From: Actinomycetospora callitridis
GTDB lineage: Bacteria; Actinomycetota; Actinomycetes; Mycobacteriales; Pseudonocardiaceae
Assembly (NCBI RefSeq): GCF_028737265.1
Contig: NZ_JAQZAK010000012.1
Coordinates: 62,001 to 126,000 of the forward strand
Length of the DNA stretch: 64,000 bases
Direction of reading: 5' to 3'
Made by a program: the position numbers and the translations under genes. A model generated the notes under the pieces. That model was given only the letters and a program-made list of their open reading frames with translations. It made no database searches and was not told the DNA's origin. Positions 3,853 through 26,807 of this stretch are shown piece by piece; position 1 is the stretch's first letter; each line of letters begins with the position of its first letter.

Positions 3853-6800
3853 TCACGCGTCGACCTCGTCGAGGTCGCCGGCGCCCTCGGCGTCGGTGAC
3901 ATCGACAGACTCGTCCGAGGGATCGGAGGTCTTGACCTCCTCGTCGCGGGCTTGCCAGTGTGTGAGCTGCTCCGCCCGGTAATCGGCTTCCTCTCGTGCG
4001 TCGGCGTCCTCGCGAGCGCGGATCTCGGCGAGCGCGCGGTTCGCCTTCTCGACGGCTGCTGACGTCTCGTCGGCGCTGGGTACGCGCACGTGGTCTTCGG
4101 CCACGGGGCTCGGCTCCGAGGCAGCCACCTCTCGGATGTCGGGCCCGCTCGCCTCGACCTCGTGGTCCTCGTCGTCGCGGTCCTCGGGGGCGCGGTCCAC
4201 CTCCTCGTCTTCGTGCTGGTGAAGGTCGTTCGGACGGTCCGTGACGTCGTCGTCGGTGACCTCACGGTGAGTCTCGTCGGCTGCGATCTCTGCTCGGTGC
4301 GCAGCGAGCCACTCGGCCGCGGTGGTGCGTTGCTCAGGTTCGGCGTCATCGGCATGGCGGGCTGCGAGCTCGGCCTTGGCACGTTCGGCGGCGGCTCGGG
4401 TGCCAGCAGTGTGGGCCAGCCACCGGGAGCGGGCCTCGTCGAGCTCACTGAGCTCGGCGGCACGCGCTTCGAGAGCACCGGCGAGGGTCGCGGTCTGTTG
4501 GGCTTCGCCGTGGAGCCGGCTCTGGTCGTCGGGGGCTGTGGAGGCGTCGGCCTCAGCCCGCCGGAGCTGCGCGTCCTCCTGGGCACGAGTGGCGGCCTGA
4601 TGGGTGCCGGCGAGCTCATTAGCGACATATCGGGGCGCCCAAGCAGCTTCGCGCTCGTGGGCACGCACGCGCATCCGGAGCTGGCCGTCTGAGAGCTCGA
4701 GCTCTTCGCGATCGATCTCAGGGCGGCCGAGGGCGCGCCAGGCCGCACGGTAGGCGGCGTAGGCCTCGACCTTGCCGGGGCCCGGCGCGGGACCGAGCGC
4801 ATCCTCGTCGGCGTCGTGGCCGCTGAGCTCGCGCCAGGCGGCGACGGACCTCGCCCGGTCCTGCCACTGGTCGCGCTCCGCGAGCGAGTCGGGAACCGGA
4901 CCCAGAGCATCGGTGAGCCACCGTGGCGGGGCCGTGGCGAGCTGTTCGCCCATCTCGGCGCTGCGTCGATCGGCAGCCTCGGCGAGCGAGGTCAGATAGC
5001 GGTCCCAGTCGGCCCGGCCAGTGGTCGGGGTCCAGTCGGTCCAGGTGCGGCCCTCGGGATCGAAGGTGTGGGCGTCGCGGATGCGGCCATGGACGACGTT
5101 GGTGAGGTTGCGCGCGCCCGCGAGGGGCCGGTCGGCGACTGCTTCGCGCAGGATGCTCTCCGGGTCGTGGCCGGCGAGTTCGGCGCGACGCAGGATGCGC
5201 GTCAACGAGGCGGCGCCGTCCTCGGCGGCGAGACGGGCGCGATCGTGACCGGTGATGGCGCCCTGGACGACCAACTCGTCGAGCCAGCGCCCGGTGCGCT
5301 CGGTAGCGGCCAGGTGCGCGGCATCGCTGAAGAGCTCCCCAGCGGTGCGGGTGCTGCCGGCCTCGGTGGCGGACTCGGTCGCCGTCGTGAGCGCGGAGGC
5401 GGACTCCATGCCGTCGTCGCGAGTCACGATCCCGGCCATCACGGCGACCGGGTCGCGGTGCAGGGAGTGATCTCCGGGCGAGCCGTCGGCGGGATCGATG
5501 GGTCCGGAGATGGTGGCGACGTGGGCCGTGTTGGACGCTCGGCCGCGAGTGAGCCCGACGTAGCTCGCGGCGCGACTCGTGCCTGATCCGGCGACGAGGT
5601 GGCTCGTGTCGACGGTGAGACCCTGGGTCGCGTGGACGGTGCCGGCGTAGGCCAGCGCCACGTCGGCGGCGACGTAGTCGCGGGGCAGAACCATCGGGTC
5701 GCCGAGAACCTCAGCGCCCTCGGAGCCGCAGCCGTGGACGGGGGCCACGGTCAGCGAGCCGTCCTCGCCGACGGCGGTGACGCGGTAGGTCTCCCGATTG
5801 ATCGGCCCACGTCGATTGCCCTCATGCCCGGCGAGCTCCCAGCCGTTGCGGCGAGTGGCGACGAGGTCGCCCACACCGGCGTCGTTGCCGTCCCGTCCCA
5901 GCGGCACGCCCTGCTCCTCGACGTGTCCGAGGCGGACCAGTTCAGCGCGCAGCGCGCCGGCAAGCCGGTCGGCTCGCTCGTTGGTGTCGACCACGAGTAC
6001 CGAGTGCCGCCCGGCCAGGGTGTCGGCGAGCCAGGCGCGGCTGGCAGAGGCCTCGGCATCGTCGAGGGTGCCGGCGTCGACGAGTCGCCCGTGGCGGTGA
6101 TAGTCGCGCAGCACGGTGTCGTCGCCGTCGCGCAGGCGCAGAGACGCTGGCCCTTCCCAGTCTTCACGGAAGCGGCGGGTCTCGGTGAGCTCGTAACGCG
6201 CGCCAGTGTGGGCGAGCAGGTCCATGGCCCCGCCGGCTCCGACGGCGGCGAGCTGGCGGTGGTCGCCGACCAGGAGAAGCTTCGCCCCGGCGGCATCCAC
6301 GTGCCCGTGAATCGCGGCCAGGGCCGCGGTGTCGGTCATCGCGGACTCGTCGACCACGACGAGGTCACCCGCCCGCAGCCGCCACCTCGAGGTGTCGTCC
6401 ACCTGCGCGCCTACCGCGAGACGGTCTTGCGTGCCGAGCCAGCGTTTGACATTGCGGGCATCGAGGCCTTCGTCGGCGAGAATTCCGGTGGCGATCTGGC
6501 TGGTGGCGAGCCCGAAGACGCGGCCCGCGGCGGCGCCCCGGAGCCCGGGATCCGACCAGGCTCTGGCGAGGGCGCCGACGACGAAGCTCTTGCCTGTCCC
6601 AGCGGGTCCGACGAGGGTCTCGATCCGCGCTCCTGAGGTAAGGACCCCACGCACGGCGGCGGCCTGATCCACGCCGAGCTCGCGGCCAGACTCCCGGAGC
6701 CGACCGAGGAACCGGTCCGCGATCACAGCCGGCGTCGCGGCGGCGTCCCCGCGGCGGGCGGCGGCGGTCATCGCGCGTTCGGTGTGGACGTGATCGGGGG

Positions 6801-8283
6801 TGGCGTAGAGATTCGCGCCGGGAGCGTCATAGGCCGAGCGGCCGTTCGCCAAACGGAGCTCATCGGGTAGGGCGGCATCGCCGGGTCGGGCGGCATCGAG
6901 CGGGGTCGAGAGCGCGAGCCCCTCGTCGGTGAGCCAGTCCAGCAGGCCGGCCACGTCGCCGCCGTCGGTCAGTCCGAGGGTGTCGGGCAGGGCATCGTTG
7001 ATCGCGCGGGTGAGGTCGGCGCGCGTCCAGGCGGCTTTGCGGGTCTGGACATCGGCCAGCGCGGTCTCGAGGACCTCTTTCGGTGACCACTTTCCCGCCG
7101 CCGGCCTGTCTTGCTCACGCGCACTGAGGACGTCGTCGACGACGGCGCGCAACCCGCCGGCGACCTCGCCGCGCAGCTGGGCGTCGACACGGTCGAGGAA
7201 CTGGGTGCGTGTCTCTCCGTCGTGGGACTTCGCCTGGCGGGTCGCCATGGTGGCCTGCCGCGAGAGCCGGTCGCGCTCGAGGCCGTTGGCTTCCCGATCA
7301 TGGTGCGCTTCGAACTCGCCGATCAGCTCTGCGGCCTTCTCGGTCACCGCGCGGCGCCGCGAGGAGAACAGGTCGGTGACCGTGTCGTCGATACCCGCGA
7401 CCTCGCGGGCCTTGCCGTCCGGGCGCATCGCGAGGCGCAGCCCGAGCGCTCGGGCGAGGTGCTCCTCGGTGGTGCGCTCGCCCACCGCGGCCGCGGCGGG
7501 CCGGAACTTGTGGATCGCCCGCGAGTCGAGGGTGCGCCACTCGTCGTCCTCGTCACCTGGGGCGCGGTTGAGGATCGGGTTGTGAATGTGCAGCTGCGGG
7601 TCGTGGTCGCGGGAGTCGTGCTGGAAGAACGACGCCACGACCCAGCCGTGCGCGTCGACCCATCGCCCGGCGGCGCCGCCGTGGTGCCCGACGCGGGCGT
7701 AGCCGGCCTTGTCCTGCAGGTACGTGAGAGCTGCGTTGTTGCCCGCCCAGATCGCGTCCTCGACGGCCTGGCGGTACTCGCCCCACGCCGCTGCTGTGTC
7801 CTCGTCGCCGGCATTGCAGGCTTTGACCTCCTGGGCCTCGAACGCGGTGTGCAGCACGGTGACGCTCTTCTGAACGCTGAACGTGGCGTCGAGGAAGGCG
7901 ACGTTGTGGCGAGCCTGCTTGCCCGCCTCGACCTGTAGTTCAGCACGGCGTTCAGCGCTGGCGTCGGGCTCTCGTTCAAGCGCGGCGGCGTACAACTCAT
8001 CCTCGCTGGCGTAGCGCCGTCCGGTATGCCCGAGGGTCGGGACCTCGTCCCACCGCTCCGGGTCGGAGAAGCCGTCGTGCCGTGGGTCGAGGAAGCGCTC
8101 GTAGATCCCGCGCATGTCCTGGGCATCGACGAGCCCGCTCAGACCGAGCTTCTCCGCGCCGGCGCCCCACCAACGGCCTGGCGGCTCGCCGTCGGTGACC
8201 GCACCGGTGTAGTAGGACTCGCGGCCGGTCGCGACTTCGTTGAGCAGGTAGTCCGGCGAGTAGCCAGACGAGACACTCAGCAT
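3853..8283 (-). CDS. MobF-type relaxase with TraA-like helicase domain
   Basis: This 1476-residue protein should nick oriT and unwind the transferred strand. The N-terminal relaxase domain has adjacent tyrosines Y24/Y25 and the three-histidine site H222...DPQLHIHN (H232, H234), as in TrwC/TraI. A RecD-like helicase domain follows: Walker A GPAGTGKS near residue 559-566, Walker B LVVVDES, GDHRQLAAVG, and the late motifs TVHATQGLT and YVGLTRGR. The last 500 residues are charged and rich in Ala/Glu/Arg, with likely coiled coil (ELSELDEARSRWLAH), ending in an acidic tail. The ATG at 8283 overlaps the preceding small gene by 7 bases. It is the last gene of the transfer operon. Confidence 0.95.
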   Translation of the reverse strand: MLSVSSGYSPDYLLNEVATGRESYYTGAVTDGEPPGRWWGAGAEKLGLSGLVDAQDMRGIYERFLDPRHDGFSDPERWDEVPTLGHTGRRYASEDELYAAALEREPDASAERRAELQVEAGKQARHNVAFLDATFSVQKSVTVLHTAFEAQEVKACNAGDEDTAAAWGEYRQAVEDAIWAGNNAALTYLQDKAGYARVGHHGGAAGRWVDAHGWVVASFFQHDSRDHDPQLHIHNPILNRAPGDEDDEWRTLDSRAIHKFRPAAAAVGERTTEEHLARALGLRLAMRPDGKAREVAGIDDTVTDLFSSRRRAVTEKAAELIGEFEAHHDREANGLERDRLSRQATMATRQAKSHDGETRTQFLDRVDAQLRGEVAGGLRAVVDDVLSAREQDRPAAGKWSPKEVLETALADVQTRKAAWTRADLTRAINDALPDTLGLTDGGDVAGLLDWLTDEGLALSTPLDAARPGDAALPDELRLANGRSAYDAPGANLYATPDHVHTERAMTAAARRGDAAATPAVIADRFLGRLRESGRELGVDQAAAVRGVLTSGARIETLVGPAGTGKSFVVGALARAWSDPGLRGAAAGRVFGLATSQIATGILADEGLDARNVKRWLGTQDRLAVGAQVDDTSRWRLRAGDLVVVDESAMTDTAALAAIHGHVDAAGAKLLLVGDHRQLAAVGAGGAMDLLAHTGARYELTETRRFREDWEGPASLRLRDGDDTVLRDYHRHGRLVDAGTLDDAEASASRAWLADTLAGRHSVLVVDTNERADRLAGALRAELVRLGHVEEQGVPLGRDGNDAGVGDLVATRRNGWELAGHEGNRRGPINRETYRVTAVGEDGSLTVAPVHGCGSEGAEVLGDPMVLPRDYVAADVALAYAGTVHATQGLTVDTSHLVAGSGTSRAASYVGLTRGRASNTAHVATISGPIDPADGSPGDHSLHRDPVAVMAGIVTRDDGMESASALTTATESATEAGSTRTAGELFSDAAHLAATERTGRWLDELVVQGAITGHDRARLAAEDGAASLTRILRRAELAGHDPESILREAVADRPLAGARNLTNVVHGRIRDAHTFDPEGRTWTDWTPTTGRADWDRYLTSLAEAADRRSAEMGEQLATAPPRWLTDALGPVPDSLAERDQWQDRARSVAAWRELSGHDADEDALGPAPGPGKVEAYAAYRAAWRALGRPEIDREELELSDGQLRMRVRAHEREAAWAPRYVANELAGTHQAATRAQEDAQLRRAEADASTAPDDQSRLHGEAQQTATLAGALEARAAELSELDEARSRWLAHTAGTRAAAERAKAELAARHADDAEPEQRTTAAEWLAAHRAEIAADETHREVTDDDVTDRPNDLHQHEDEEVDRAPEDRDDEDHEVEASGPDIREVAASEPSPVAEDHVRVPSADETSAAVEKANRALAEIRAREDADAREEADYRAEQLTHWQARDEEVKTSDPSDESVDVTDAEGAGDLDEVDA

Positions 8284-8576
8284 CCGGACGACCTCGCGAA
8301 GATCGACAGAGGCGTGTCCGGGCAGACCTCAGCGGCAGACGGCTCTTCTAGCCGGCCGAAGGCCGGCCACCACCCTCGGATCGTGATGCCTAGGTGTGCG
8401 TCTTCTGATCTTTCCCTTGATCTTTTCGTCTTGGTGTCTTGTTGGTCGTGTCTGGTCGTCTGTTCGGCGTAGTGATCGGTGTCGGGAAGTGGTCGTGCTC
8501 TTGGTTCTTGCTCTTGTCCTTGTCGTTGGTCGTGGTCGGTGCTGCTGGTCGTGGTGATCGGCGCTTCGATGGTCAT
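8277..8576 (-). CDS. Small hypothetical protein between DUF2637 gene and relaxase
   Basis: The frame encodes 99 residues, starting MTIEAPITTTSSTDHDQRQ, polar and Gln/Asp/Thr-rich, with a more ordered stretch AHLGITIRGWWPAFGRLEE. In favour of its being real, its ATG overlaps the upstream stop (ATGA at 8573-8576) and its stop overlaps the relaxase start. Against it, the sequence is low in complexity and lies over an AT-richer, hairpin-bearing stretch that could instead be oriT. I do not recognise the protein. Confidence 0.45.
   Translation of the reverse strand: MTIEAPITTTSSTDHDQRQGQEQEPRARPLPDTDHYAEQTTRHDQQDTKTKRSRERSEDAHLGITIRGWWPAFGRLEEPSAAEVCPDTPLSIFARSSGC
8351..8367. repeat. Perfect inverted repeat upstream of relaxase; oriT candidate
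   Basis: GCCGGCC and GGCCGGC form a perfect 7-bp inverted repeat around a 3-base loop (GAA), about 70 bases before the relaxase start. The adjoining 8385-8480 stretch is T-rich on the plus strand (for example GATCTTTCCCTTGATCTTTT) and much poorer in GC than its surroundings. Relaxase genes often lie next to their nicking site, so this is the best oriT candidate in view, although a terminator or mRNA hairpin is also possible. Confidence 0.35.
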
Positions 8577-9439
8577 GGCTGGGCCTCGTCGGTGGTGTTC
8601 GGGTCGGTGATGTTGATCAGGTGGAGGGGCAGCGGTCGGTCTCGGAGCGCTTTGAGCGCGACGGCGGCGGTGCCTCGGGACACGCCGGCGGCGGTCTCGA
8701 GCTCGGAGACGGTGGGCCAGGCGCCGTGGCGCTGGGCGTGCCGCGACGCGGCGGCCTCAGCCCGGTCGCGAGCGGGCGAGGACGCAGGCCTCGACCGCGG
8801 CGGATCGCCAGAGGCGTCTCCTGCATCGCGGTGGTCGGCTGATTCTGTTGCGCCGCTCGGCGCCGCCTGTACGGGTGGCGGGAGGGCCTCGGGCTGAACA
8901 GCGGGAGCAGTGAACGGCCCGGTCTGAACGCTGCTGCGCTGAACGACCACCTCGTCGAGCGCCTCGTTGCGGTCCCGGCGCGGCTGAACGGCTCGCTCCG
9001 TCGATGGGTCGGCGGTGGCGAGGAGGTAGAGCAGGTGGGCGACCACGGCTGCGGCGACGGCCGGCCAGGCGCCGACCCCGAAGCGCAGTGCGGGCGCGAC
9101 CTCGACGGTGGGTCCGCCGGCGAGGTATGTGGCCTGGGCGAGCCCGGAGAGCCCGGCGGCGGTGACGACGACAACCCACGCGTAGCGAGCTGCGCCGTCG
9201 CGGAGCCGGGCGGTGGCGCTATAGGCGACCAGCGCGAGCCCGTCGGTGATCAGCGGATAGAGCCAGGCGATCCCGGTCGGTACCCGGGCGGCGACGGCGA
9301 CCTCGAACAGGCCGTGGGCGGTCGCGATGGCTGCGCCGAGCGCGACGGCCAGTCCCGGAAGCCACAGGAGCGCGCCCTTCGCTCCCGATGGGGACACCCG
9401 TTCTACCGAGGCGTCGGGTTCGAGCTGGTTCTCGGTCAC
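8573..9439 (-). CDS. DUF2637 membrane protein with C-terminal HTH-like segment
   Basis: From GTG 9439 the protein has 288 residues and starts VTENQLEPDASVERVSPSG; a longer open frame upstream has shadow-like Arg/Pro composition. Four hydrophobic segments lie at about residues 20-135 (LLWLPGLAVALGAAIATAHG, IAWLYPLITDGLALVAYSA, AWVVVVTAAGLSGLAQA, WPAVAAAVVAHLLYLL), the pattern of DUF2637 proteins, common on actinobacterial conjugative elements as Spd-like spread proteins. A proline-rich linker leads to a C-terminal helix-turn-helix-like segment (TVSELETAAGVSRGTAAVAL). It could act at the membrane in transfer. It overlaps the next gene by 4 bases. Confidence 0.8.
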   Translation of the reverse strand: MTENQLEPDASVERVSPSGAKGALLWLPGLAVALGAAIATAHGLFEVAVAARVPTGIAWLYPLITDGLALVAYSATARLRDGAARYAWVVVVTAAGLSGLAQATYLAGGPTVEVAPALRFGVGAWPAVAAAVVAHLLYLLATADPSTERAVQPRRDRNEALDEVVVQRSSVQTGPFTAPAVQPEALPPPVQAAPSGATESADHRDAGDASGDPPRSRPASSPARDRAEAAASRHAQRHGAWPTVSELETAAGVSRGTAAVALKALRDRPLPLHLINITDPNTTDEAQP

Positions 9440-9444
9440 CGGCC

Positions 9445-9801
9445 TCACCCGGCGTCCGCGTCGGCGGCGGCGTGCTCGCCGGCGCGGTCTTCGCCATGCC
9501 AACGGGCAAGCTGCTCGTGGCGGCTCTGGTGGGACTGTTCGTCGTCCTGGCGGGCGGCACGGTGTTCGGCGGCCTGGGCCGCGGTGGGTTGCCTCGCCGG
9601 GTCGCGCGCTGCTTGCCGGTCCAGATCGGCGACCGCTTGGCGGAGGTCGTCGAGGGAGCCGCAGAAGCAGTGGAACTGGTCGGGCGCGATCGCATTCATG
9701 TGTGCGAAGTAGATGTCGCTGAGCCGGTCCCATTCAGCGTGTTCGACCTTTTCGCGGGCTCGCTGCTCGACGCGGGTCTCGGCCTCGCCGGCGGCGCTCA
9801 T
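9445..9801 (-). CDS. Hypothetical protein of the transfer operon (118 aa)
   Basis: The protein starts MSAAGEAETRVEQRAREKV at ATG 9801, which overlaps the upstream stop (ATGA). The core FAHMNAIAPDQFHCFCGSLD precedes a helical stretch (DLRQAVADLDRQAARDPAR), and the tail is polar, His/Glu/Arg-rich. No membrane segment or known domain is seen. The His-Cys-x-Cys cluster could bind a metal, though nothing proves it. The stop lies five bases before the start of the DUF2637 gene. Confidence 0.6.
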   Translation of the reverse strand: MSAAGEAETRVEQRAREKVEHAEWDRLSDIYFAHMNAIAPDQFHCFCGSLDDLRQAVADLDRQAARDPARQPTAAQAAEHRAARQDDEQSHQSRHEQLARWHGEDRAGEHAAADADAG

Positions 9802-10526
9802 CGAGACCAACCGCTGCGCGGGGAGGTGCCGTTGACGGCTGCGCTGATACCGGAACCGGTGCGTTCCGCCGGATCGTTGGAGCCCGGCTCCGGGGGCGCG
9901 TCGTCGCGGGCGGCGGCCCACCACCAGGCGATCGAGGTCGCGGCCTCGGCGCCGGGCACCGGGCTGGCTCCGAGAGGCGCGCTGTTCCAGCCGGGTCGGG
10001 TCTGGTGGCGTTCTCGGGAGCACGAGCCGGCCGCGGTGCGCAGTCGACGGACGACCCCGGGGCGTTGGCGATCGTGCCAGTCCCCGGCTAGCTGCACCGA
10101 GGCTCCCCGGCTCTCGTAGGCGGCGCGCCAGGCGTACATGAGCCAGAGCAGCTCCTCGACGACGTCGGGGTGCCAGAGCCAGCATTCGGGCAAGACCGCG
10201 GCACCGTCGGGGTAGCGCAGGAAGATCGCGTGCAGCCACCGGCACAGCTCGTCGAGCAGCGCTGCGAGGGCTTCGGAGTCGGTGGGTGCGGCCAGCCAGG
10301 ACGGCGCAACGGTCGGGCCAGGTCGCGCCGGCGCGGCTGCAACGGCGTCGGCGAGCTGGGCGACGGTGCGCGCCAGGTCATCGACCCGCGTCGGTGTCCC
10401 GAGGAGCTCCTCAAGGCTACGGCGCAGCCCGTCGACCTCGCGGGCGAGGCCAGCGAGTGCCTCAACCCGGGCGAATGCGTCGCCGTCGCTCCCGCCGCCG
10501 GCTTGTCCAGGTGGGCGGCGGCTCAT
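9798..10526 (-). CDS. DUF4913-like protein of the transfer operon
   Basis: The protein has 242 residues from ATG 10526, which overlaps the upstream stop. Residues 20-65 form a likely coiled coil (REVDGLRRSLEELLG, RTVAQLADAVAAAP). The central part, WLHAIFLRYPDGAAVLPECW followed by HPDVVEELLWLMYAWRAAY, resembles DUF4913, a domain found mostly on actinobacterial plasmids and integrative elements with no assigned biochemical role. The C-terminal third (from HDRQRPGVVRRL) looks disordered. Its steady link with coupling-protein genes suggests a transfer accessory. Confidence 0.7.
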   Translation of the reverse strand: MSRRPPGQAGGGSDGDAFARVEALAGLAREVDGLRRSLEELLGTPTRVDDLARTVAQLADAVAAAPARPGPTVAPSWLAAPTDSEALAALLDELCRWLHAIFLRYPDGAAVLPECWLWHPDVVEELLWLMYAWRAAYESRGASVQLAGDWHDRQRPGVVRRLRTAAGSCSRERHQTRPGWNSAPLGASPVPGAEAATSIAWWWAAARDDAPPEPGSNDPAERTGSGISAAVNGTSPRSGWSR

Positions 10527-11236
10527 CGGTCCCACCCCGGCTCGCCGTCGCCCTGCGTCTCTCGCTGTACGTCCGAGATCGCACCCGTGGCGCAGTGGTC
10601 GTCGTCGTTCCAGCGGGCCAGCTGGTCGCGTCGCTCCTCACCGTCGACCACGCCCTCGGCGCTCGCCTCACGGGCGGCGATCGAGGCGCGCAGGTCCTCG
10701 ATGCGCTGACGCAGCCGCTCGAGGTCGTCCGGGTGGGTGGTGTCGTGTGCCTTGGCGGGGTCACAGGTTCCGGCCGCCCAGGCACCGGTGGAGGACCACC
10801 GACGTCCCTGGGTGTCAGTGAACGGCCCGCGGTCATCGCCGGGCCGGTCTACGAGGTCGGCGAGGGCGTCCTGCTCAGGCGGCGGGGCGAGCTCGGCGAG
10901 GGCTTCGAGCCGCCGGTACTCCGCCCACGCGTGCGGGTCGTGGTCGTGGGCCCAATCGGAATGGACGGCCCGCTGGCGGGCTGCGTCGAGGGCATCGTCG
11001 ACCTCGGTGGTCGGCGGCTGGGACCAGCCCGGCGCGGATGCGGCGTTCTCCTCGAGCCACGCGGTGCGCGCCAGGGCTTCCTCGTCCGAGGCCGGCTCGC
11101 GCCAGTCCGGATCGCCGTATTCCGCGGACGGGTTGAACGGCGAGGTCTCGTCAGGGCGGCTGTCGAGGTAGGCCACGTGCTGCGCGCCGGTCAGCTGGCC
11201 GTTCGTCGGATCGGGTGTCGTGTACGGCGTGGTCAT
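10523..11236 (-). CDS. Hypothetical charged protein of the transfer operon (237 aa)
   Basis: From ATG 11236 (MTTPYTTPDPTNGQLTGAQH) the protein is acidic and hydrophilic, with the segments AWAEYRRLEALAELAPPPEQ and a coiled coil LERLRQRIEDLRASIAAREA near residue 180. The start overlaps the coupling-protein stop (ATGA); an in-frame ATG nine bases upstream is possible but lies inside the neighbour. No known domain is recognised. Its tight translational coupling to the coupling protein gene is the only functional clue. Confidence 0.6.
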   Translation of the reverse strand: MTTPYTTPDPTNGQLTGAQHVAYLDSRPDETSPFNPSAEYGDPDWREPASDEEALARTAWLEENAASAPGWSQPPTTEVDDALDAARQRAVHSDWAHDHDPHAWAEYRRLEALAELAPPPEQDALADLVDRPGDDRGPFTDTQGRRWSSTGAWAAGTCDPAKAHDTTHPDDLERLRQRIEDLRASIAAREASAEGVVDGEERRDQLARWNDDDHCATGAISDVQRETQGDGEPGWDR

Positions 11237-13137
11237 CTCATCCACGTCCTCTCACCGTGGTGATTGCGGTCCTGCTCGCCGAGCACGGGTGGGGCGACCG
11301 GGTCGACGTCGATCACCAGTGGCCGCGCGTCCTCCGAGCGCGGGGTGGGACCCGGAGTCGTGCGTCGGCGGGCGGTGACCAGCCGGTACCACCAGGCGCC
11401 GATCGCGGGACCTCGGTGGCGTGGAGCGGAGACCCGGCGCCGCAGCGCTGCGACGCCGACGTCAGCCCACGCACGCACCCGCTGACAGCGGCCTCGCCAT
11501 CCGGTCGCGACAAGCTGCCGCTGGGCACGCACGTCCGATCGGGTCCAGGCCATGCGGGCTCGCCCGATCACCGGGGCGATCCCCCGCCTGTAGACGACGA
11601 CCTTCCCGGCAGGCAGGTTCGCGAGCTGCGCCGCCGCGAGCACCGGCACCTTGCGCACCGTCCGCGACGCCACACGTCCGTGCAGGTCCGTCGTGGTGAT
11701 CCGCTCGTCGCGCTCGCCGGCCAGGGTCGACCAGAACTGCAGGTCGGCCTGGTCGCGGGTGCCGCCGAACAGCAGGACCGAGCCGGTGTTGTTCAGGATG
11801 GTGGCGGTCTTGTGTTCCCCGTAGCGAGCCAGCAGCTGGGCTCGGGACTGGAACGGCGCGATGATCGTGACCCCGCGCCCTCCCATGTCTGCGGTCCAGT
11901 TCTCCAACGGGACAGGGCTGATCAGCGCCGCCTCGTCGAGGGCCAGCAGCAGCGGCGGATCGAGCCGCCCCGACGGCTTGGCGACCGCGAGCCGACGGGC
12001 CTCGCGGGCGATGTGCCCGGTCAGGGCGCATACCAGCGACCCGGTGTCGGCTTCCTCGGCGCCGAGCAGGAACACCGTGGCCCGCGAGGAGAGCAGCTCC
12101 TCCACGTCGAAGGGCTGGTCGGTCGGCGCTGCGGCGGCTGCGGCGTCGGGATGGTTGAGCCACCCCAGCGCCGGCATGATCGAGTTGGTGATGGAGGTGC
12201 GGGTGCGGTCGTTGGTCTCGACGAACTGCTCCGCGGCCTTCTCGAAGGACTCCACCTGGCTGCGCCGCAGTAGCGCCGGCACCTCGCGGGCGGCGCGGGC
12301 GTTGTCGGCGACCCAGCCGAGGACATCGCGCATCGACCCGCCGCCGAGCGCGGCCGCGTGCAACAGGGCCGCGAGCACCCGGCGGGCCTGGGCGTCCCAT
12401 CGCTCCGCGTCTCCGCTGCCCGCCCTCGAGGTCGCGGAGACCATGTCGGTGGCCCGCTCCATCGCGGTCACCGGGTCGGTGCATCCGGTCAGCGGGTCGA
12501 AGCTGATCGTCGAGCGCAGACCGCCGAGCCCGACCGGGTTGAACACGAACACCGGCCCGCGGGTCTTCTGCCGGATCGGGGCGCACAGCTCGAGCAGGTC
12601 GGTGCGGGTGGAGGTGACGACCGCGGCGCCGGGGGCGTCGAGGACCCGACCGGCGAGCCAGCCTGTCTTCCCGGTGCGTGGCCCGCCGAAGACCAGGGTC
12701 ACGTCCTCGATCGAGGACCACACTCGCTGCACCCCGACTCGGCACAGCTCGACACCGACTGCGCTGGTCGGCACACCCAGTCGCTCCCGCCGCGACAATG
12801 ACGCAAGCGAGGGGCGGACCGTGCACGCCCGTCGGCGGGTCGCGACCGTTCCTGCGTGACGGGCCACGTCCAAGCTTGAGGCGACCCCGGCGCGGCGCCG
12901 GGACCGCGCCGACCACCGGAGCACGGTGGCGCGCGAGCGTGACCAGCGGTGCCAGCCCAGCAGCAGCAACACCGCGCCGGCGATGACCCACACGGGCCAG
13001 GGCAGAGCCTGGACCAGCGTCGTCGCCGGCAAGCTCGTGAACGCCCCGCACACCAGCGCCTGACGGATCGCGCCGCGGATGACCAGCAGCGCGGTCAACC
13101 CGACCATCAGCACCAGGATCAGTAGCGTCGAGATCAT
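11233..13137 (-). CDS. TraG/VirD4-type conjugal coupling protein
   Basis: This 634-residue membrane ATPase would bring the relaxase-DNA complex to a secretion channel. Two N-terminal hydrophobic segments (residues 3-20 and 48-62) anchor it. Walker A is GGPRTGKT at residues 151-158; Walker B is LLLALDEAAL. TVFLLGAEE and MGGRGVTIIAPFQSRAQL match the TraM-recognition and VirD4 core. ATG 13137 was chosen because it overlaps the previous stop by 4 bases; the longer frame upstream covers that gene. No VirB4-like ATPase or other channel gene is visible nearby, so the channel must lie off the left edge or be supplied in trans. Confidence 0.93.
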   Translation of the reverse strand: MISTLLILVLMVGLTALLVIRGAIRQALVCGAFTSLPATTLVQALPWPVWVIAGAVLLLLGWHRWSRSRATVLRWSARSRRRAGVASSLDVARHAGTVATRRRACTVRPSLASLSRRERLGVPTSAVGVELCRVGVQRVWSSIEDVTLVFGGPRTGKTGWLAGRVLDAPGAAVVTSTRTDLLELCAPIRQKTRGPVFVFNPVGLGGLRSTISFDPLTGCTDPVTAMERATDMVSATSRAGSGDAERWDAQARRVLAALLHAAALGGGSMRDVLGWVADNARAAREVPALLRRSQVESFEKAAEQFVETNDRTRTSITNSIMPALGWLNHPDAAAAAAPTDQPFDVEELLSSRATVFLLGAEEADTGSLVCALTGHIAREARRLAVAKPSGRLDPPLLLALDEAALISPVPLENWTADMGGRGVTIIAPFQSRAQLLARYGEHKTATILNNTGSVLLFGGTRDQADLQFWSTLAGERDERITTTDLHGRVASRTVRKVPVLAAAQLANLPAGKVVVYRRGIAPVIGRARMAWTRSDVRAQRQLVATGWRGRCQRVRAWADVGVAALRRRVSAPRHRGPAIGAWWYRLVTARRRTTPGPTPRSEDARPLVIDVDPVAPPVLGEQDRNHHGERTWMR

Positions 13138-13493
13138 GACGGCCCCCCGCTCTCGCCGGGCTGCGGGCCCACAGGCACGCCTGGGCCGGCGTGTGCGAGC
13201 CAGTAGCCGCCGCCAGCGCGGGCGAGCTGGAACTGCGTTCCCTCCCCCGTCATGCGCTTCGCCCACACCTGGGCGGCCTCGTCGGTCATCGCCTCGTCGG
13301 TGCGTCCGACCAGCGCCGCGTCGACGAACAGGGCCCACGTGATCGGCCCACCGCACGGCGCGTCCCCCAACACGAGACCGAGGACCGGGGCCGCGACATC
13401 CGCGCGGACCAGCTCGACCCCCAGCAGCAGCGGCCGCGTCGTCTCTGCCGGCTCACCGACTCGTGCACTGGGCGCCGGCCTGCGACTAGGCAT
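13134..13493 (-). CDS. Hypothetical protein upstream of the coupling protein (119 aa)
   Basis: The protein starts MPSRRPAPSARVGEPAETTR and contains RADVAAPVLGLVLGDAPCGG and a two-part segment PITWALFVDAALVGRTDEAM / AAQVWAKRMTGEGTQFQLAR. It is mostly soluble, alpha/beta in character, with a Gly/Pro-rich end. Its ATG lies eight bases inside the preceding gene, and its stop overlaps the coupling-protein start. No family is recognised. Confidence 0.6.
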   Translation of the reverse strand: MPSRRPAPSARVGEPAETTRPLLLGVELVRADVAAPVLGLVLGDAPCGGPITWALFVDAALVGRTDEAMTDEAAQVWAKRMTGEGTQFQLARAGGGYWLAHAGPGVPVGPQPGESGGPS

Positions 13494-14022
13494 CGGTGTC
13501 TCCTTCCACGTCGTGGCGCCACACCTCGAGTGCCGCCGCGCGGCGGGCGCAGTCGTCGTGATGGCCGGTCTCCCGGTCGTCGGGGTGTGCAGCGAACGGC
13601 CCGGTGTCGCGGACCCGACCGCGGCACGTCGTGCAGGTCCACACCGCTGAAGTCAGCTGAACGCCGGCCGCGGGTGGTGGAGGTCGGTGCTCGATGAGCC
13701 ACTCCCACGCCGCCTCATCGCGGGTGCTCCCGCCGGCGTCGGCGGGGAGCCCGAGGGCATGGCCGATGGCGTCCCAGCTGTGGCCGGCGCTCCGAGCGCG
13801 CAGCGCTGAGTTCCGCAGCGCCCCGATCGCGACGTCGGCAACGAGTCGTCCCGCCCGCACTCCGGTGAGCGGGTCGTCCAGCACGGGACGGGAGAGCCCG
13901 TGGAAGCCCTCGATCGGCTCTTGGTGTTCGGCTGCGTCGAACGCGGTGACCGCCACCTCGCGCACGAGCTCGCGGGTCCTCCACGCCGCCTGTTCGCGTC
14001 GACTCACCTCGAGCGCGCTCAT
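13486..14022 (-). CDS. Putative DNA-binding protein with Cys/His cluster (178 aa)
   Basis: The N-terminal half is helical (RTRELVREVAVTAFDAAEHQ), and ALRARSAGHSWDAIGHALGL near residues 75-95 looks like a helix-turn-helix. The C-terminal part has WTCTTC followed by H, HH and C (GHHDDCARRAA), a plausible zinc ribbon. The ATG at 14022 overlaps the WhiB-like stop (ATGA). A regulatory or DNA-processing role is inferred; the family is unknown to me. Confidence 0.6.
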   Translation of the reverse strand: MSALEVSRREQAAWRTRELVREVAVTAFDAAEHQEPIEGFHGLSRPVLDDPLTGVRAGRLVADVAIGALRNSALRARSAGHSWDAIGHALGLPADAGGSTRDEAAWEWLIEHRPPPPAAGVQLTSAVWTCTTCRGRVRDTGPFAAHPDDRETGHHDDCARRAAALEVWRHDVEGDTDA

Positions 14023-14420
14023 CGGGGATCAGCCCCTTGAGTGGGCGCCGACTGCTCGGAGGGGAGGCGGGAGGCCCAACGCGCGATGGTGCGGACGCTC
14101 ACCCCGTACTCGGCCGCAACCTCCGAGTAGGAGGACCCGGCGTCGAGGAGAAGCAGCCACCGCGGCTTTCGCGCCCCGGGGCGTTCGCGTTGCGCCCGAG
14201 CTCGTCGACGCTCGTGCTCGGTCAACCCACCGGCGACTCCGTGTGGAAGACGCTCGAGCGCCTCGGCCAGGCACTGCTCCCGCACGGGGCAGCGCCGGCA
14301 CACCGCCTTCGCCGCCGCGACCTGCGTGCGCACCAGGGGCTCGTCCGACGGCTCCGGGAAGAACAGCTCCGGATCCACGCCCCGGCACGCCGCGCGAACC
14401 TGCCAGTTCGTGTCAGCCAT
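14019..14420 (-). CDS. WhiB-like iron-sulfur regulator with C-terminal HTH
   Basis: The protein has 133 residues from ATG 14420. The four iron-sulfur ligands are C12, C41, C44 and C50 (VCRRCPVREQC), followed by the GVAGG turn and an Arg-rich stretch, as in WhiB proteins. After it, residues 88-120 (SYSEVAAEYGVSVRTIARWA) form an extra helix-turn-helix not present in the usual short WhiB proteins. It may sense redox state or NO and regulate the element's own promoters. It overlaps ssb by 8 bases. A longer open frame (from 14516) has only shadow composition upstream. Confidence 0.88.
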   Translation of the reverse strand: MADTNWQVRAACRGVDPELFFPEPSDEPLVRTQVAAAKAVCRRCPVREQCLAEALERLPHGVAGGLTEHERRRARAQRERPGARKPRWLLLLDAGSSYSEVAAEYGVSVRTIARWASRLPSEQSAPTQGADPR

Positions 14421-14847
14421 GGCCGCCCACCAGCTCTTCCGCCGAGGCCTCAGCGCTCTCCGGGTCGCCGGCGCGGCCGGCAGGCGCGGTCGTGCGCTGA
14501 GGGCGTGCCGTGGCATAACGCAGCGACACCCCGAGGTCGTCGACCTCGAGCTCGATCAGCTGCCGGTGCTGGCCCTCGGCGGTCTCGAACGACCGCTGCC
14601 GCAGCCGACCGGTCACCACGACTCGGTCGCCCTTGTCCAGCGACTCTGCGGCGTGCTCCGCAAGCGGGCCCCATGCGACACAGCGCAGGAACAGGGCATC
14701 GCCATTGGTCCACGTGCCCTGCTGGCGGTCGAAGCGCCGGGGTGTGGAGGCGACCGTGAACCCTGCTCGCCCTGCCCCGCTCGGCAGGTACCGCAGGTCC
14801 GGGGCATCGGTCAGGTTGCCGACGATCGTCAGCGTCGTCTCGTTCAT
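14413..14847 (-). CDS. ssb: Single-stranded DNA-binding protein, element-encoded
   Basis: The OB-fold protein of 144 residues starts MNETTLTIVGNLTDAPDLRY at ATG 14847, with GAGGAG eight bases upstream. LRYLPSGAGRAGFTVASTPR, GDALFLRCVAWGPLAEHAAE and KGDRVVVTGRL are the standard SSB blocks. The acidic glycine-rich tail ending in DDDIPF of housekeeping SSB is missing; it ends EELVGGHG. It is the first gene of the transfer operon and likely coats the single strand made by the relaxase. Confidence 0.92.
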   Translation of the reverse strand: MNETTLTIVGNLTDAPDLRYLPSGAGRAGFTVASTPRRFDRQQGTWTNGDALFLRCVAWGPLAEHAAESLDKGDRVVVTGRLRQRSFETAEGQHRQLIELEVDDLGVSLRYATARPQRTTAPAGRAGDPESAEASAEELVGGHG

Positions 14848-15147: not shown

Positions 15148-15378
15148 TCAGCCGTCGGTGGTCGTCTCCGAAGCGCCCGTCAAGGCAGGCGTCGTGGCCT
15201 GATCCACGGCCGACATCAACCCGCCGATCACTCCCGGCAGGCCCTGACCGGCCGGTGTGCCGATGAACAGCACCAGGGCAACGAGCGAGAACACCACGGC
15301 ACCAGCGGCGGACCGGGTCTTCGCGCAGATGAACGCGCCCAGTATCGCGAAGAGAATCAGCAGCCCGACACTCATCAC
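15148..15378 (-). CDS. Small two-helix membrane protein of the element
   Basis: The protein has 76 residues with two hydrophobic segments, MMSVGLLILFAILGAFICA and AGAVVFSLVALVLFIG, then GTPAGQGLPGVIGGLMSAVD and a polar tail. Its ATG overlaps the excisionase stop (ATGA). No family is recognised. Small membrane proteins beside xis/transfer genes are frequent in actinobacterial elements, so a role in spread or transfer is possible. Confidence 0.6.
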   Translation of the reverse strand: MMSVGLLILFAILGAFICAKTRSAAGAVVFSLVALVLFIGTPAGQGLPGVIGGLMSAVDQATTPALTGASETTTDG

Positions 15379-15620
15379 CGCTCTCCACGGAACATTCCCA
15401 GCAGCGAGGAATCGCCGTCCGATCGCTCGGCCGTCGCTTCCGCGACGAGTCCATCGATCACCGCAGCAGGGATCAGCACCCGACCACGGATACGGATCGC
15501 CCGCAGCTCACCGGAGTTGATCGCGCGATAGACCGTCATGCGCGACATCTTGAACATTGCGGCGACCTCGGCCACGTCGTAGAACGTCGGCGCCGTCGCA
15601 GTCCTTTCATTGAGTGTCAC
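15375..15620 (-). CDS. xis: Excisionase-like small HTH protein
   Basis: The protein has 81 residues and a MerR/excisionase-type winged HTH: YDVAEVAAMFKMSRMTVYRA followed by NSGELRAIRIRGRVLIPAAV. Such proteins bind near att sites and steer the integrase toward excision, or act as regulators. It is divergent from the XRE regulator at 15774 and leads the minus-strand operon, far from the integrase gene at the other end of this half of the element. The shared promoter region has repeated GGGAC boxes. Confidence 0.8.
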   Translation of the reverse strand: MTLNERTATAPTFYDVAEVAAMFKMSRMTVYRAINSGELRAIRIRGRVLIPAAVIDGLVAEATAERSDGDSSLLGMFRGER

Positions 15621-15773: not shown

Positions 15774-16517
15774 ATGGCCAACGAGCGTCTCCGTGACGCC
15801 CTGATGCACGCTGGGCACTCGACCTCCACCGCAGCCGATCAGGTCGGCGTCGACGCGAAGACCGTCGAACGGTGGCTCACACAGGATCGGGTTCCGTACC
15901 CCCGCCATCGAGGTGCGCTGGCTGCTCTGGTGGGGCGGAGCGAGTCCTACCTGTGGCCCGCCGCCGTGCCGGCTCAGCGACAGAAGAAGGCCGCGACCTC
16001 GGAGATCGTCGAGACCTTCCCGCACCGCAGCGACGTGCCTGCCCGCCTGTGGGATGACCTGCTGCTGCGGGCGTCAGCACGGATCGACGTACTGGTGCAC
16101 GCTGGGCAGTTCCTCCATGAGCGTCCGAGCTTCATCGCGACGTTGAAGGCCAAGGCGGAGGCCGGCGTCGCGGTGCGGATCGCCTTCGGCGCGCCCGAGA
16201 GCGAGGCCACCGAGCGCCGGAGCGCGGAGGAGAAGCTCGGCCTCGGGGTACTGGGGGCGCGCATCCGGTACGGCCTCGTCAGCTATCGACCGCTCCTCCG
16301 CACCGAGGGCGTCGAGTTTCGCTTCCACGAGACCACGCTCTACAACTCGATCTTCCGGTTCGACGATGAGATGATCGTGAACATGCACGTCTTCGGCGTC
16401 CCAGGTCCGCACGCACCGGCAATGCATCTCCGGAAACTGGCTGCCGGCGACGTGTTCGACACCTACGAGGGCAGCTTCGTGGACGTCTGGGAACAGTCGA
16501 AGCCGGCCGAGTGGTAG
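15774..16517 (+). CDS. XRE family regulator with DUF5919-like C-terminal domain
   Basis: The protein has 247 residues from ATG 15774, after GGAGG at 15763-15767. The N-terminal HTH (residues 5-50: LRDALMHAGHSTSTAADQVG, KTVERWL) is Cro/C1-like. The rest, with ASARIDVLVHAGQFLHERPS and GVAVRIAFGAPESEATERR, resembles the DUF5919 domain, related to phospholipase-D-like folds and common in XRE regulators of actinobacterial elements. It is followed after four bases by the Nudix gene. It probably controls the xis/transfer operon through the GGGAC boxes upstream. Confidence 0.85.
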   Translation: MANERLRDALMHAGHSTSTAADQVGVDAKTVERWLTQDRVPYPRHRGALAALVGRSESYLWPAAVPAQRQKKAATSEIVETFPHRSDVPARLWDDLLLRASARIDVLVHAGQFLHERPSFIATLKAKAEAGVAVRIAFGAPESEATERRSAEEKLGLGVLGARIRYGLVSYRPLLRTEGVEFRFHETTLYNSIFRFDDEMIVNMHVFGVPGPHAPAMHLRKLAAGDVFDTYEGSFVDVWEQSKPAEW

Positions 16518-16521
16518 CGGC

Positions 16522-16992
16522 ATGGCCAGAACCGATCACTTCAACGACCCGGACGCTCCCCGACCGAACAGCATCGTCATCGCGGTCAGCGCTTTCGTGC
16601 TCGACAAGGATGCTCAGTTGCTGATGATCCGTCGCACCGACAACGGCTACTACGCCCTTCCGGGCGGCCGCCACGAACTCGGTGAGACGATGACTCAAAC
16701 GGTTGTCCGCGAAACCCAAGAAGAGACTGGGATGACTGTCGAGGTGACGAGCCTCGTCGGCATCTACTCCAATCCCGACCATGTCATGGCCTACGACGAC
16801 GGCGAGGTCCGTCAGGAGTTCTCCATCTGCTTCCGAGCTCGGCCCGTCGCCGGCGCACCACGGACGAGCGACGAGTCGAGCGAGGTCGTGTGGGTGCCAC
16901 GCGCGGAGCTCGCCGGCATCGAGGTCCACCCGTCGATCCGCCTCCGGATCGACCATGGGTTCCGAACCGACGCCCCGCCGTACTACACCTGA
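16522..16992 (+). CDS. Nudix hydrolase, possibly a Pif-like transfer-immunity factor
   Basis: The 156-residue protein has a full Nudix box at about residues 48-71: GGRHELGETMTQTVVRET followed by QEETGM, with all the conserved Gly, Glu and Arg-Glu residues. The N-terminus ALPGG strand and the C-terminal WVPRAELAGIEVHPSIRLRI fit the fold. In the Streptomyces element pSAM2, the Nudix protein Pif blocks redundant transfer between carriers; the place of this gene next to the XRE regulator suggests a similar job. The alternative is plain nucleotide-pool cleaning. It overlaps the HD gene tail to tail by 10 bases. Confidence 0.88.
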   Translation: MARTDHFNDPDAPRPNSIVIAVSAFVLDKDAQLLMIRRTDNGYYALPGGRHELGETMTQTVVRETQEETGMTVEVTSLVGIYSNPDHVMAYDDGEVRQEFSICFRARPVAGAPRTSDESSEVVWVPRAELAGIEVHPSIRLRIDHGFRTDAPPYYT

Positions 16993-26687: not shown

Positions 26688-26734
26688 GAGGAAGTTACCC
26701 GGTTCGGACCAACGTCTGTGCTGGTCACGGTGGG

Positions 26735-26780
26735 TGGAGACGAAGGGAATCGAACCCTCAACCCCCGCCTTGCAAAGGCG
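26735..26780. other. Presumed att junction in tRNA-Ala 3' half
   Basis: Integrases of this kind recombine at tRNA 3' ends, and int lies immediately beyond this end. The matching duplicate, expected to contain GGTTCGATTCCCTTCGTCTC or its complement, was not found by eye anywhere from position 1 to 26700, so the other junction should lie left of the window. The exact crossover site is unknown. Confidence 0.55.
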
Positions 26781-26807
26781 GTGCTCTGCCAATTGAGCTA
26801 CGTCCCC
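26735..26807 (-). tRNA. tRNA-Ala(TGC)
   Basis: The cloverleaf is complete: acceptor GGGGACG pairs with CGTCTCC (one G-T pair), the D arm has AGCTCAATTGGCAGAGC, the anticodon stem CCGCC/GGCGG holds loop TTTGCAA with anticodon TGC, and the T arm has GGTTCGATTCC. The discriminator is A, and the terminal CCA is not encoded (CCCACC follows). It is the integration target of the element to its left; the 3' part seen here is therefore probably supplied by the element. Confidence 0.96.

Follow-up and report, generated by a model that had tools for sequence, protein, structure and literature searches.

A conserved MobF relaxase and coupling-protein module on a tRNA-Ala island of Actinomycetospora callitridis that may rely on a borrowed mating channel

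Gene content of the transfer operon

We examined a run of conjugation-related genes in the soil bacterium Actinomycetospora callitridis, within a window of 64,000 nucleotides (bases 62001-126000 of the 183,996-bp contig NZ_JAQZAK010000012.1, hereafter C3; positions are those of the window unless a contig is named). The genome (6.08 Mb, 98.6% complete) has Actinomycetospora chibensis as its closest named relative, with a coupling protein that is 98% identical. From ssb to mobF, ten genes run on the minus strand (Table 1), and this operon is a real, conserved relaxosome-and-coupling half of an island at a tRNA-Ala gene. The open reading frames (ORFs) and overlaps named in a preliminary description of the DNA exist, and the overlapping one-strand run holds for these ten genes, including a whiB gene that was missed by the gene caller and found by Pfam; a 5-base gap separates 9445-9801 from 8573-9439. 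A further frame at 8277-8576, involved in two of the overlaps given there, probably does not represent a gene.

Both components from which a transfer function had been proposed are borne out. The MobF relaxase exceeds the cut-offs of Pfam TrwC (152 bits, cut-off 25) and NCBIfam MobF (142.5, cut-off 100), and it has the features of the MOBF class, namely a TrwC domain (PF08751), a C-terminal helicase (PF13604) and, by eye, a HUH-like LHIH motif. The ATPase matches PF02534 and PF12696 over cut-off and combines N-terminal transmembrane (TM) segments, Walker A and B motifs and a TraG-D_C domain, as expected of a VirD4/TraG-type type IV coupling protein (T4CP). The TraG-D_C and TrwC matches of these two proteins are the only ones in the genome.

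Besides MobF, the T4CP, WhiB and SSB, no operon protein matches a Pfam or NCBIfam family over cut-off, and profile searches against solved structures gave no credible kin. Of the five or six proteins initially described as lacking a known function, two nevertheless have distant relatives, while the rest remain without a family. The protein at 9798-10526 is related by BLAST (4.8e-6) to an Arthrobacter DUF4913 protein, which itself matches PF16259 (4.1e-7); none of the 26 orthologues described below matches PF16259 directly, and the structure model (predicted local distance difference test, pLDDT, 65) has no Foldseek match at E 0.001. The membrane protein at 8573-9439, with three TM segments by hydropathy, is weakly DUF2637-like: the Pfam family matches 4/19 orthologues (best E 0.001) and the window protein at E 0.76. 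Its model (pLDDT 56) is confident only at the helix-turn-helix (HTH), residues about 221-265.

Table 1. Features of the operon and the island, with the number of the 26 related loci in which each gene was detected
Feature	Position	Strand	Loci (of 26)	Remarks
MobF relaxase-helicase	3853-8283	-	25	1476 aa; TrwC domain, then RecD-like AAA_30
Candidate oriT region, first taken as a 99-aa gene	8277-8576	-	18 (as ORF)	Core motif CACACCTAGGCATCACGATCC at 8378-8398
Membrane protein, weakly DUF2637-like	8573-9439	-	19	Three to four TM helices; C-terminal HTH
g67, small 118-aa protein	9445-9801	-	15	No family over cut-off
DUF4913-like protein	9798-10526	-	26	Constant T4CP companion; BLAST kinship
g69, variable 237-aa protein	10523-11236	-	15	No family over cut-off
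VirD4/TraG-type coupling protein (T4CP)	11233-13137	-	26	Two N-terminal TM; Walker A GGPRTGKT; PF02534, PF12696
g71, small 119-aa protein	13134-13493	-	15	No family over cut-off
g72, small 178-aa protein	13486-14022	-	15	No family over cut-off; also in family genomes G139, G155
WhiB-family regulator	14019-14420	-	21	PF02467 2.4e-22; C-terminal HTH
Single-stranded DNA-binding protein (ssb)	14413-14847	-	12	PF00436 5.3e-25
g74, 75-aa two-TM protein	15148-15375	-	21	Strongly conserved module member
Excisionase-like HTH_17 protein (xis)	15375-15620	-	15	PF12728 1.3e-11; NCBIfam excise 5.8e-9
Divergent XRE/phospholipase-D-like and NUDIX hydrolase pair (names by eye)	15774-16992	+	5
Tyrosine integrase (int), C-terminal GntR domain	24879-26570	-	7	PF00589 3e-19; PF00392 3.3e-11
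Right attachment (att) repeat	26704-26777			74 bp, 93% vs left copy; overlaps 3' end of tRNA-Ala(TGC) 26733-26807
Left att copy	C3:18554-18627 (window -43446 to -43373)			74 bp, 93% identical to right

Conservation of the module and a candidate oriT

One T4CP search of the genome collection, which detects close relatives only, yielded 26 loci from Actinomycetospora, Pseudonocardia and metagenome-assembled genomes, with up to four loci per genome and each locus extending about 10 kb either side of the T4CP gene (some less). The gene-order comparison suggested in the preliminary description recovers the same module order across these loci by tblastn, [int]-xis-g74-(ssb)-whiB-g72-g71-T4CP-g69-DUF4913-g67-DUF2637-(99 aa)-MobF, with distant loci keeping the order with fewer genes. 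The module does not start at ssb as first drawn, for both the 75-aa gene and the excisionase gene recur in more loci than ssb does. The single locus from which mobF is missing, L033, has a contig of 3.6 kb. In all 26 loci, as in each further stretch around a T4CP that we scanned, the T4CP gene is followed downstream by a DUF4913-family gene, frequently with one or more genes between them; our DUF4913 profiles contain window members, and independent support comes from BLAST and from the PF16259 match of the Arthrobacter protein.

The ratio of nonsynonymous to synonymous divergence (dN/dS), computed for five chosen loci of the 26, is low for the T4CP (0.15-0.22), the DUF4913-like protein (0.13-0.19) and g74 (0.06-0.16), higher for g67, g69 and g71 (0.29-0.56), and 0.16, 0.16, 0.14, 0.53 and 0.13 for MobF. 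L033 was excluded from alignment A1 and L027 from alignment A2. In 6/7 integrase-bearing loci, a tRNA gene lies within 300 bases of the integrase gene (Lys twice, Thr twice, Ala, and Ser/Arg); the seventh locus, L018, ends within the integrase.

Because the 99-aa ORF at 8277-8576 has dN/dS values of 1.12, 0.70, 0.71, 0.48 and 0.81 against the same loci, compared with 0.13-0.53 for MobF, it is probably not a coding gene. The sequence CACACCNNNGCATCACGATCC is found exactly, in a single copy per locus, upstream of mobF in 23/26 related loci; the exceptions are variants in L030 and L039, and L033, which lacks mobF. For the motif at 8378-8398, the chance expectation in the shuffled window is 0.00. 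The DNA fold of 8277-8576 is no better than that of shuffles (z 0.80). From the conserved motif, we infer that this region is a candidate origin of transfer (oriT).

Boundaries and cargo of the island

The integrase is a tyrosine recombinase fused to a GntR DNA-binding domain at its C-terminus. Because the 74-bp repeat at the tRNA-Ala gene recurs at C3:18554-18627, the island can be delimited to C3:18554-88777, approximately 70.2 kb, whose left end falls outside the window, 43 kb before position 1. The island thus has the integrase and flanking att repeats of an integrative mobilizable element (IME), as well as its own relaxase by the NCBIfam MobF match. Its cargo, identified by eye and partly by Pfam, comprises copper, sulfur and arsenic genes, a complex-I-like operon and a TIR protein. 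The complex-I-like operon (C3:46827-54834; window -15173 to -7166) is located between copper and rhodanese genes, and Pfam confirms NADHdh and Proton_antipo_M in two of its genes. At the left end (C3:18842-21199; window -43158 to -40801), we observe genes for the TIR-domain protein, a short basic protein, an XRE regulator and an M78 peptidase; by eye, the latter trio recurs near a T4CP module in another Actinomycetospora (L165:17411-19233). An Rfam scan returned two tRNAs and nothing else.

Search for a channel on the island

We searched for a mating channel with six profiles covering two channel types: VirB4, SCO6880, VirB6 and VirB8 of the type found in SCO6880-bearing elements, and, for the type found beside dnaK in this genus, VirB4 and VirB6 rather than the full set. 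These six profiles gave 0 matches on the whole 184-kb contig, where only the DUF2637, DUF4913 and T4CP profiles matched, and the island is in this respect, too, like an IME. To the left of the window, 62 kb of sequence, including 43 kb of the island, were both read and profiled and contain cargo with no channel match. The initial observation that the window encodes neither VirB4 nor TraB/FtsK therefore stands and extends to the contig. In contrast, the suggestion that the channel lies off-window within the element is refuted, as far as profiles and inspection reach, because the att repeat bounds the island and the contig has no channel-profile match; nor was a VirB-like cluster found directly left of position 1.

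The same comparison separates the island from known classes of self-transmissible elements. Integrase, T4CP and MobF are all present, as in an integrative and conjugative element (ICE) of the type IV secretion system (T4SS) type, but VirB4, which the definition of that class in the available part of PMC3218068 demands, was not found on the island by profile search; the genome's PF12846 match sits on contig C21. FtsK/TraB (PF01580) has six matches in the genome, on C1, C11, C17 and C20, and none on C3. The genome encodes FtsK, a type VII secretion ATPase that is EccC-like in its domain pattern, and a pair of FtsK/TraB-type elements (C1 and C20), none of them in the island. By eye, XRE/phospholipase-D-like and NUDIX pairs resembling that of the island also flank these two elements (G000:C1:163118-164186 and G000:C20:230688-231870), which suggests a control switch shared by all three.

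The absence of a channel is not peculiar to this island. Against the channel profiles, the 26 loci gave one match, an SCO6880-like piece in L034 (1e-8). This segment (L034:19785-20480, Pseudonocardia terrae) lies about 3 kb beyond mobF, and since the contig runs on, a channel may lie beyond the end of that locus. In a T4CP tree of 48 rows, the window protein and 29 others, L034 included, form one clade with 100/100 support that contains no channel-labelled row. The four channel-bearing rows, from which the SCO6880-type profiles were also drawn, all fall outside this clade, and the tree program flags long branches among them. The tree leaves out the G135 copy, which is the same as L014, and pieces shorter than 350 aa.

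One reading of the missing channel is that the island is a decayed ICE that lost its channel and is now immobile. The lack of a channel-profile match on the contig would fit decay, as would the A. chibensis copy, which diverges about as much as its flanks. However, the frames are intact and dN/dS is low for MobF, the T4CP, the DUF4913-like protein and the 75-aa protein; furthermore, the clade unites 30 T4CPs without an adjacent channel, genomes carry up to four loci, and the tRNAs beside the copies differ. We regard decay as unlikely.

In Streptomyces, TraB is thought to act with Spd proteins as a minimal translocase. By analogy, the T4CP, the DUF2637-like membrane protein and the 75-aa one could together form such a translocase and dispense with a VirB channel. 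The genes for both membrane proteins are conserved with that of the T4CP, and MobF and a T4CP occur on Streptomyces plasmids (31-46 kb) that have no channel match in the stretches read. On the other hand, the T4CP is TraG/VirD4-like rather than FtsK/TraB-like, tblastn misses the DUF2637-like gene in 7/26 loci, and the related T4CP and DUF2637-like genes of Actinomycetospora G118 stand beside a full channel. This possibility also appears improbable.

SCO6880-type elements as a possible source of the channel

At E 1e-10, 317 plasmids of PLSDB carry T4CP relatives, in every case with less than 60% identity. On the plasmids NZ_CP095405 of Rhodococcus opacus and NZ_CP084563 of Arthrobacter, the T4CP relative is followed by DUF4913 (PF16259) and preceded by genes for SCO6880, a VirB4-like ATPase, VirB6-like and VirB8-like proteins and a wall hydrolase. 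Within the genus, a single contig of G118 combines an SCO6880-type channel with DUF2637-like, T4CP, DUF4913-like and MobF genes. The SCO6880 model NF042935 matches in R. opacus (2.9e-137) and G118 (3.5e-124), and just below cut-off in Arthrobacter (3.2e-15). Because the same T4CP/DUF4913 set adjoins these channels, the island module is, by sequence comparison, the coupling half of a known SCO6880-type architecture. The two differ in that SCO6880-type elements encode the channel and the island does not; the R. opacus plasmid, moreover, has MobC and another relaxase in place of MobF. On five T4CP plasmids without an annotated channel, no channel profile matched in the stretches scanned.

The island could accordingly obtain its channel from a co-resident or incoming SCO6880-type element, its T4CP replacing the coupling protein of that element. 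T4CP and DUF4913 genes of the kind that end or neighbour such channels in Rhodococcus, Arthrobacter and G118 argue for this source, which is also the mode that the 2017 review, in its available part, proposes for IMEs with their own VirD4 (PMC5704250). Such a helper is less evident in practice: the genome encodes one TraG-D_C protein, and among six further T4CP loci of the genus (G118, G135, three in G151, and G042), only that of G118 has the channel. We consider this source a real possibility that falls short of even chances.

A core T4SS beside dnaK as a possible source of the channel

PF12846 detects one VirB4 gene in 17/18 Actinomycetospora genomes, A. callitridis included, and misses it in G206 (83% complete). 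PF19044 finds no VirB4 in the A. callitridis genome or in ten genomes of the genus, and an earlier conclusion from this model that the genus lacks VirB4 was dropped once PF12846 had found the dnaK-adjacent gene. The A. callitridis virB4 (C21:109008-112265) belongs to a six-gene cluster (C21:105378-113774; L095) that adjoins dnaK-grpE and encodes an 88-aa two-TM protein, a VirB3-like protein, VirB4, a seven-TM VirB6-like protein, a VirB8-like protein and an NlpC/P60 hydrolase, the names VirB2, VirB3 and VirB8 reflecting size, TM count and position only. The resemblance of VirB4 to TcpF (1e-22) and that of VirB6 to the CD3337/EF1877 family (3.6e-6) do not reach the curated cut-offs. No coupling protein or relaxase is encoded in the cluster.

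The cluster is present, with its order kept, in 16/16 further Actinomycetospora genomes read, although the L142 contig ends before virB1 and dnaK and one VirB6 segment contains a stop. Relative to the A. callitridis copy, median dN/dS is 0.155 for VirB4, 0.15 for VirB2, 0.158 for VirB1 and approximately 0.3 for VirB3, VirB6 and VirB8, compared to 0.175 for dnaK, and VirB4 dN tracks dnaK dN (rho 0.82, 16 rows). Judged by these comparisons, the dnaK-adjacent T4SS is core and vertically inherited. By tblastn, the same order is found on a plasmid each of Pseudonocardia (six/six proteins), Streptomyces (five/six) and Rhodococcus (five/six), and four more plasmids have the six-gene order in their annotation. 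One of these plasmids, pSM17C, had been taken from its annotation as a link between the T4CP and the six-gene channel; it was dropped, as its coupling protein looks distantly FtsK-like and BLAST finds no similarity between it and the T4CP of the window. Of two plasmids of Streptomyces sp. NBC_01304 (NZ_CP109057.1 and NZ_CP109058.1), one has a six-gene channel order and the other MobF and a T4CP with no channel match.

This VirB1/2/3/4/6/8-like system of the host chromosome could itself be the channel, with no need for another mobile element. Its near-universal presence in the genus, its dnaK-like divergence and the matching order on related plasmids are consistent with this role, and the cluster lacks the very coupling protein of which the genome's sole TraG-D_C example is the island's. 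However, the channel is there with or without the module: among ten genomes of the genus, the T4CP has a match in eight (in G118 and G151 only of a distant type, ~40% identity), and a dnaK-type VirB4 occurs in all eight and in both of the others, so co-occurrence is uninformative. A non-conjugative role is also conceivable, since the chromosomal cmd cluster of Streptomyces, which includes a VirB4-like protein, affects sporulation according to the accessible portion of PMC2782261. A host-supplied channel is possible, though we would not call it likely.

Weighing a borrowed channel

Because the state without an adjacent channel is conserved and two channel types occur in the genus, a borrowed channel is supported, and the undescribed channel that had been offered as its alternative is conceivable but not needed. 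We therefore favor, as the probable reading of these sequences, that the island is an IME with its own VirD4-type T4CP and MOBF relaxase that borrows its channel. Within this reading, we divide our confidence about evenly between the host cluster and a helper element: the genomic neighborhood favors an SCO6880-type helper, whereas presence in the same genome favors the dnaK-side T4SS.

Several observations weigh against this interpretation. No SCO6880-type channel is found in the 1.86 Mb (31%) of the genome that was read. Channels at a distance from other loci could be missed with reads of ~10 kb each side, and L034, with its SCO6880-like piece, lies inside the T4CP clade. Of 200 family genomes scanned for both, 32 have the T4CP (E <=1e-60) and 77 a PF19044 VirB4, with 7/200 sharing the two against 12.3 expected if independent, a comparison limited by the blindness of PF19044 to the G118-type VirB4; PF12846 misses the G118 gene as well and does detect that of Arthrobacter. 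An FtsK/SpoIIIE-type rather than VirD4-type protein is found near the dnaK-type channel in 5/7 plasmids (the sixth, pSM17C, has a weakly FtsK-like protein and the seventh, from Pseudonocardia, none in the stretch read), and this pairing argues against simple compatibility of that channel with a VirD4-type protein. The candidate oriT motif was not found in the five more distant T4CP plasmids or in G118. Finally, the comparison of the A. chibensis copy with its flanks gives no sign of recent transfer.

From the parts present, the island boundaries, the contig without a channel-profile match, the conservation of the module and the two channel types of the genus, we infer how a borrowing IME would operate through excision, nicking, docking and transfer. 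The integrase and excisionase would release a circle at the tRNA-Ala gene. MobF, as in its family, would then nick a site probably within 8277-8576 and lead the strand, which the T4CP, with its DUF4913-like companion and the membrane protein at 8573-9439, would deliver to a mating channel not encoded by the island. The T4CP would dock in trans on a VirB-type channel, supplied by either the dnaK-side T4SS of the host or a co-resident SCO6880-type element.

Comparison with known systems

Actinomycete integrative and conjugative elements (AICEs) are pSAM2-like TraB/FtsK elements. Like the island, they integrate at tRNA genes and have an excisionase, and a similar XRE/phospholipase-D-like and NUDIX pair is seen by eye; unlike them, the island contig has no FtsK/TraB domain match and carries MobF and VirD4 instead. 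The actinobacterial T4SS-type ICEs, as far as the accessible sections of PMC3218068 describe them, share int, MobF (TrwC) and a VirD4-type T4CP with the island.

A close parallel is with two putative IMEs of Streptococcus which, in the part of PMC5704250 available, likewise have an integrase, a relaxase and their own VirD4-type T4CP but no mating channel, the T4CP being proposed to replace that of the helper. They differ in having MobC, whereas the island is actinobacterial and has MOBF, DUF4913-like, DUF2637-like, SSB and WhiB proteins. The same part of that review names VirD4-carrying IMEs with MobC only and knows of no canonical IME with MobF. Other excerpted sources describe a TraB translocase on pVAPN (PMC5434932), an R. 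equi plasmid that carries VirB4 and a MOB-P relaxase (PMC6794481), and TraB and ESX systems (PMC12857230), whereas the excerpts of PMC4379921 contribute nothing further here. Among the literature matches listed, no title or abstract opening concerned this module or a MOBF-VirD4 IME, and no paper was found that names DUF4913; DUF2637 is named in one.

Chromosomal VirB4 clusters broadly of this sort have a precedent, because Xie 2009 described the Streptomyces cmdABCDEF cluster (SCO4126-4131), kin to conjugation genes of the linear plasmid SLP2, and the available text does not settle whether plasmids or the chromosome pass through a channel made by cmd (PMC2782261). Compared by that description only, cmd and the dnaK-side cluster are both six-gene, chromosomal and equipped with a VirB4-like protein; cmd differs in being known for sporulation, with no link there to mobile islands.

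A further-reaching idea, which we put forward tentatively and think doubtful as it stands, is that the dnaK-side T4SS is a host-owned public mating channel and that islands of the genus shed their channel genes while keeping oriT, relaxase and a docking T4CP. A 2011 survey, in the portion available, reports many relaxases and few T4SS or T4CP in actinobacteria and calls the number of conjugative systems surprisingly low (PMC3158045). The locus puts this puzzle in concrete terms: its conserved MOBF-VirD4-DUF4913 module comes without a channel, the host cell has a defined core channel, and a relative elsewhere in the genus bears a channel of its own. If a public channel exists, it would account for the many relaxases yet few T4SS of actinobacteria, and MobF-T4CP plasmids could likewise make use of chromosomal VirB4 clusters, Streptomyces cmd among them.

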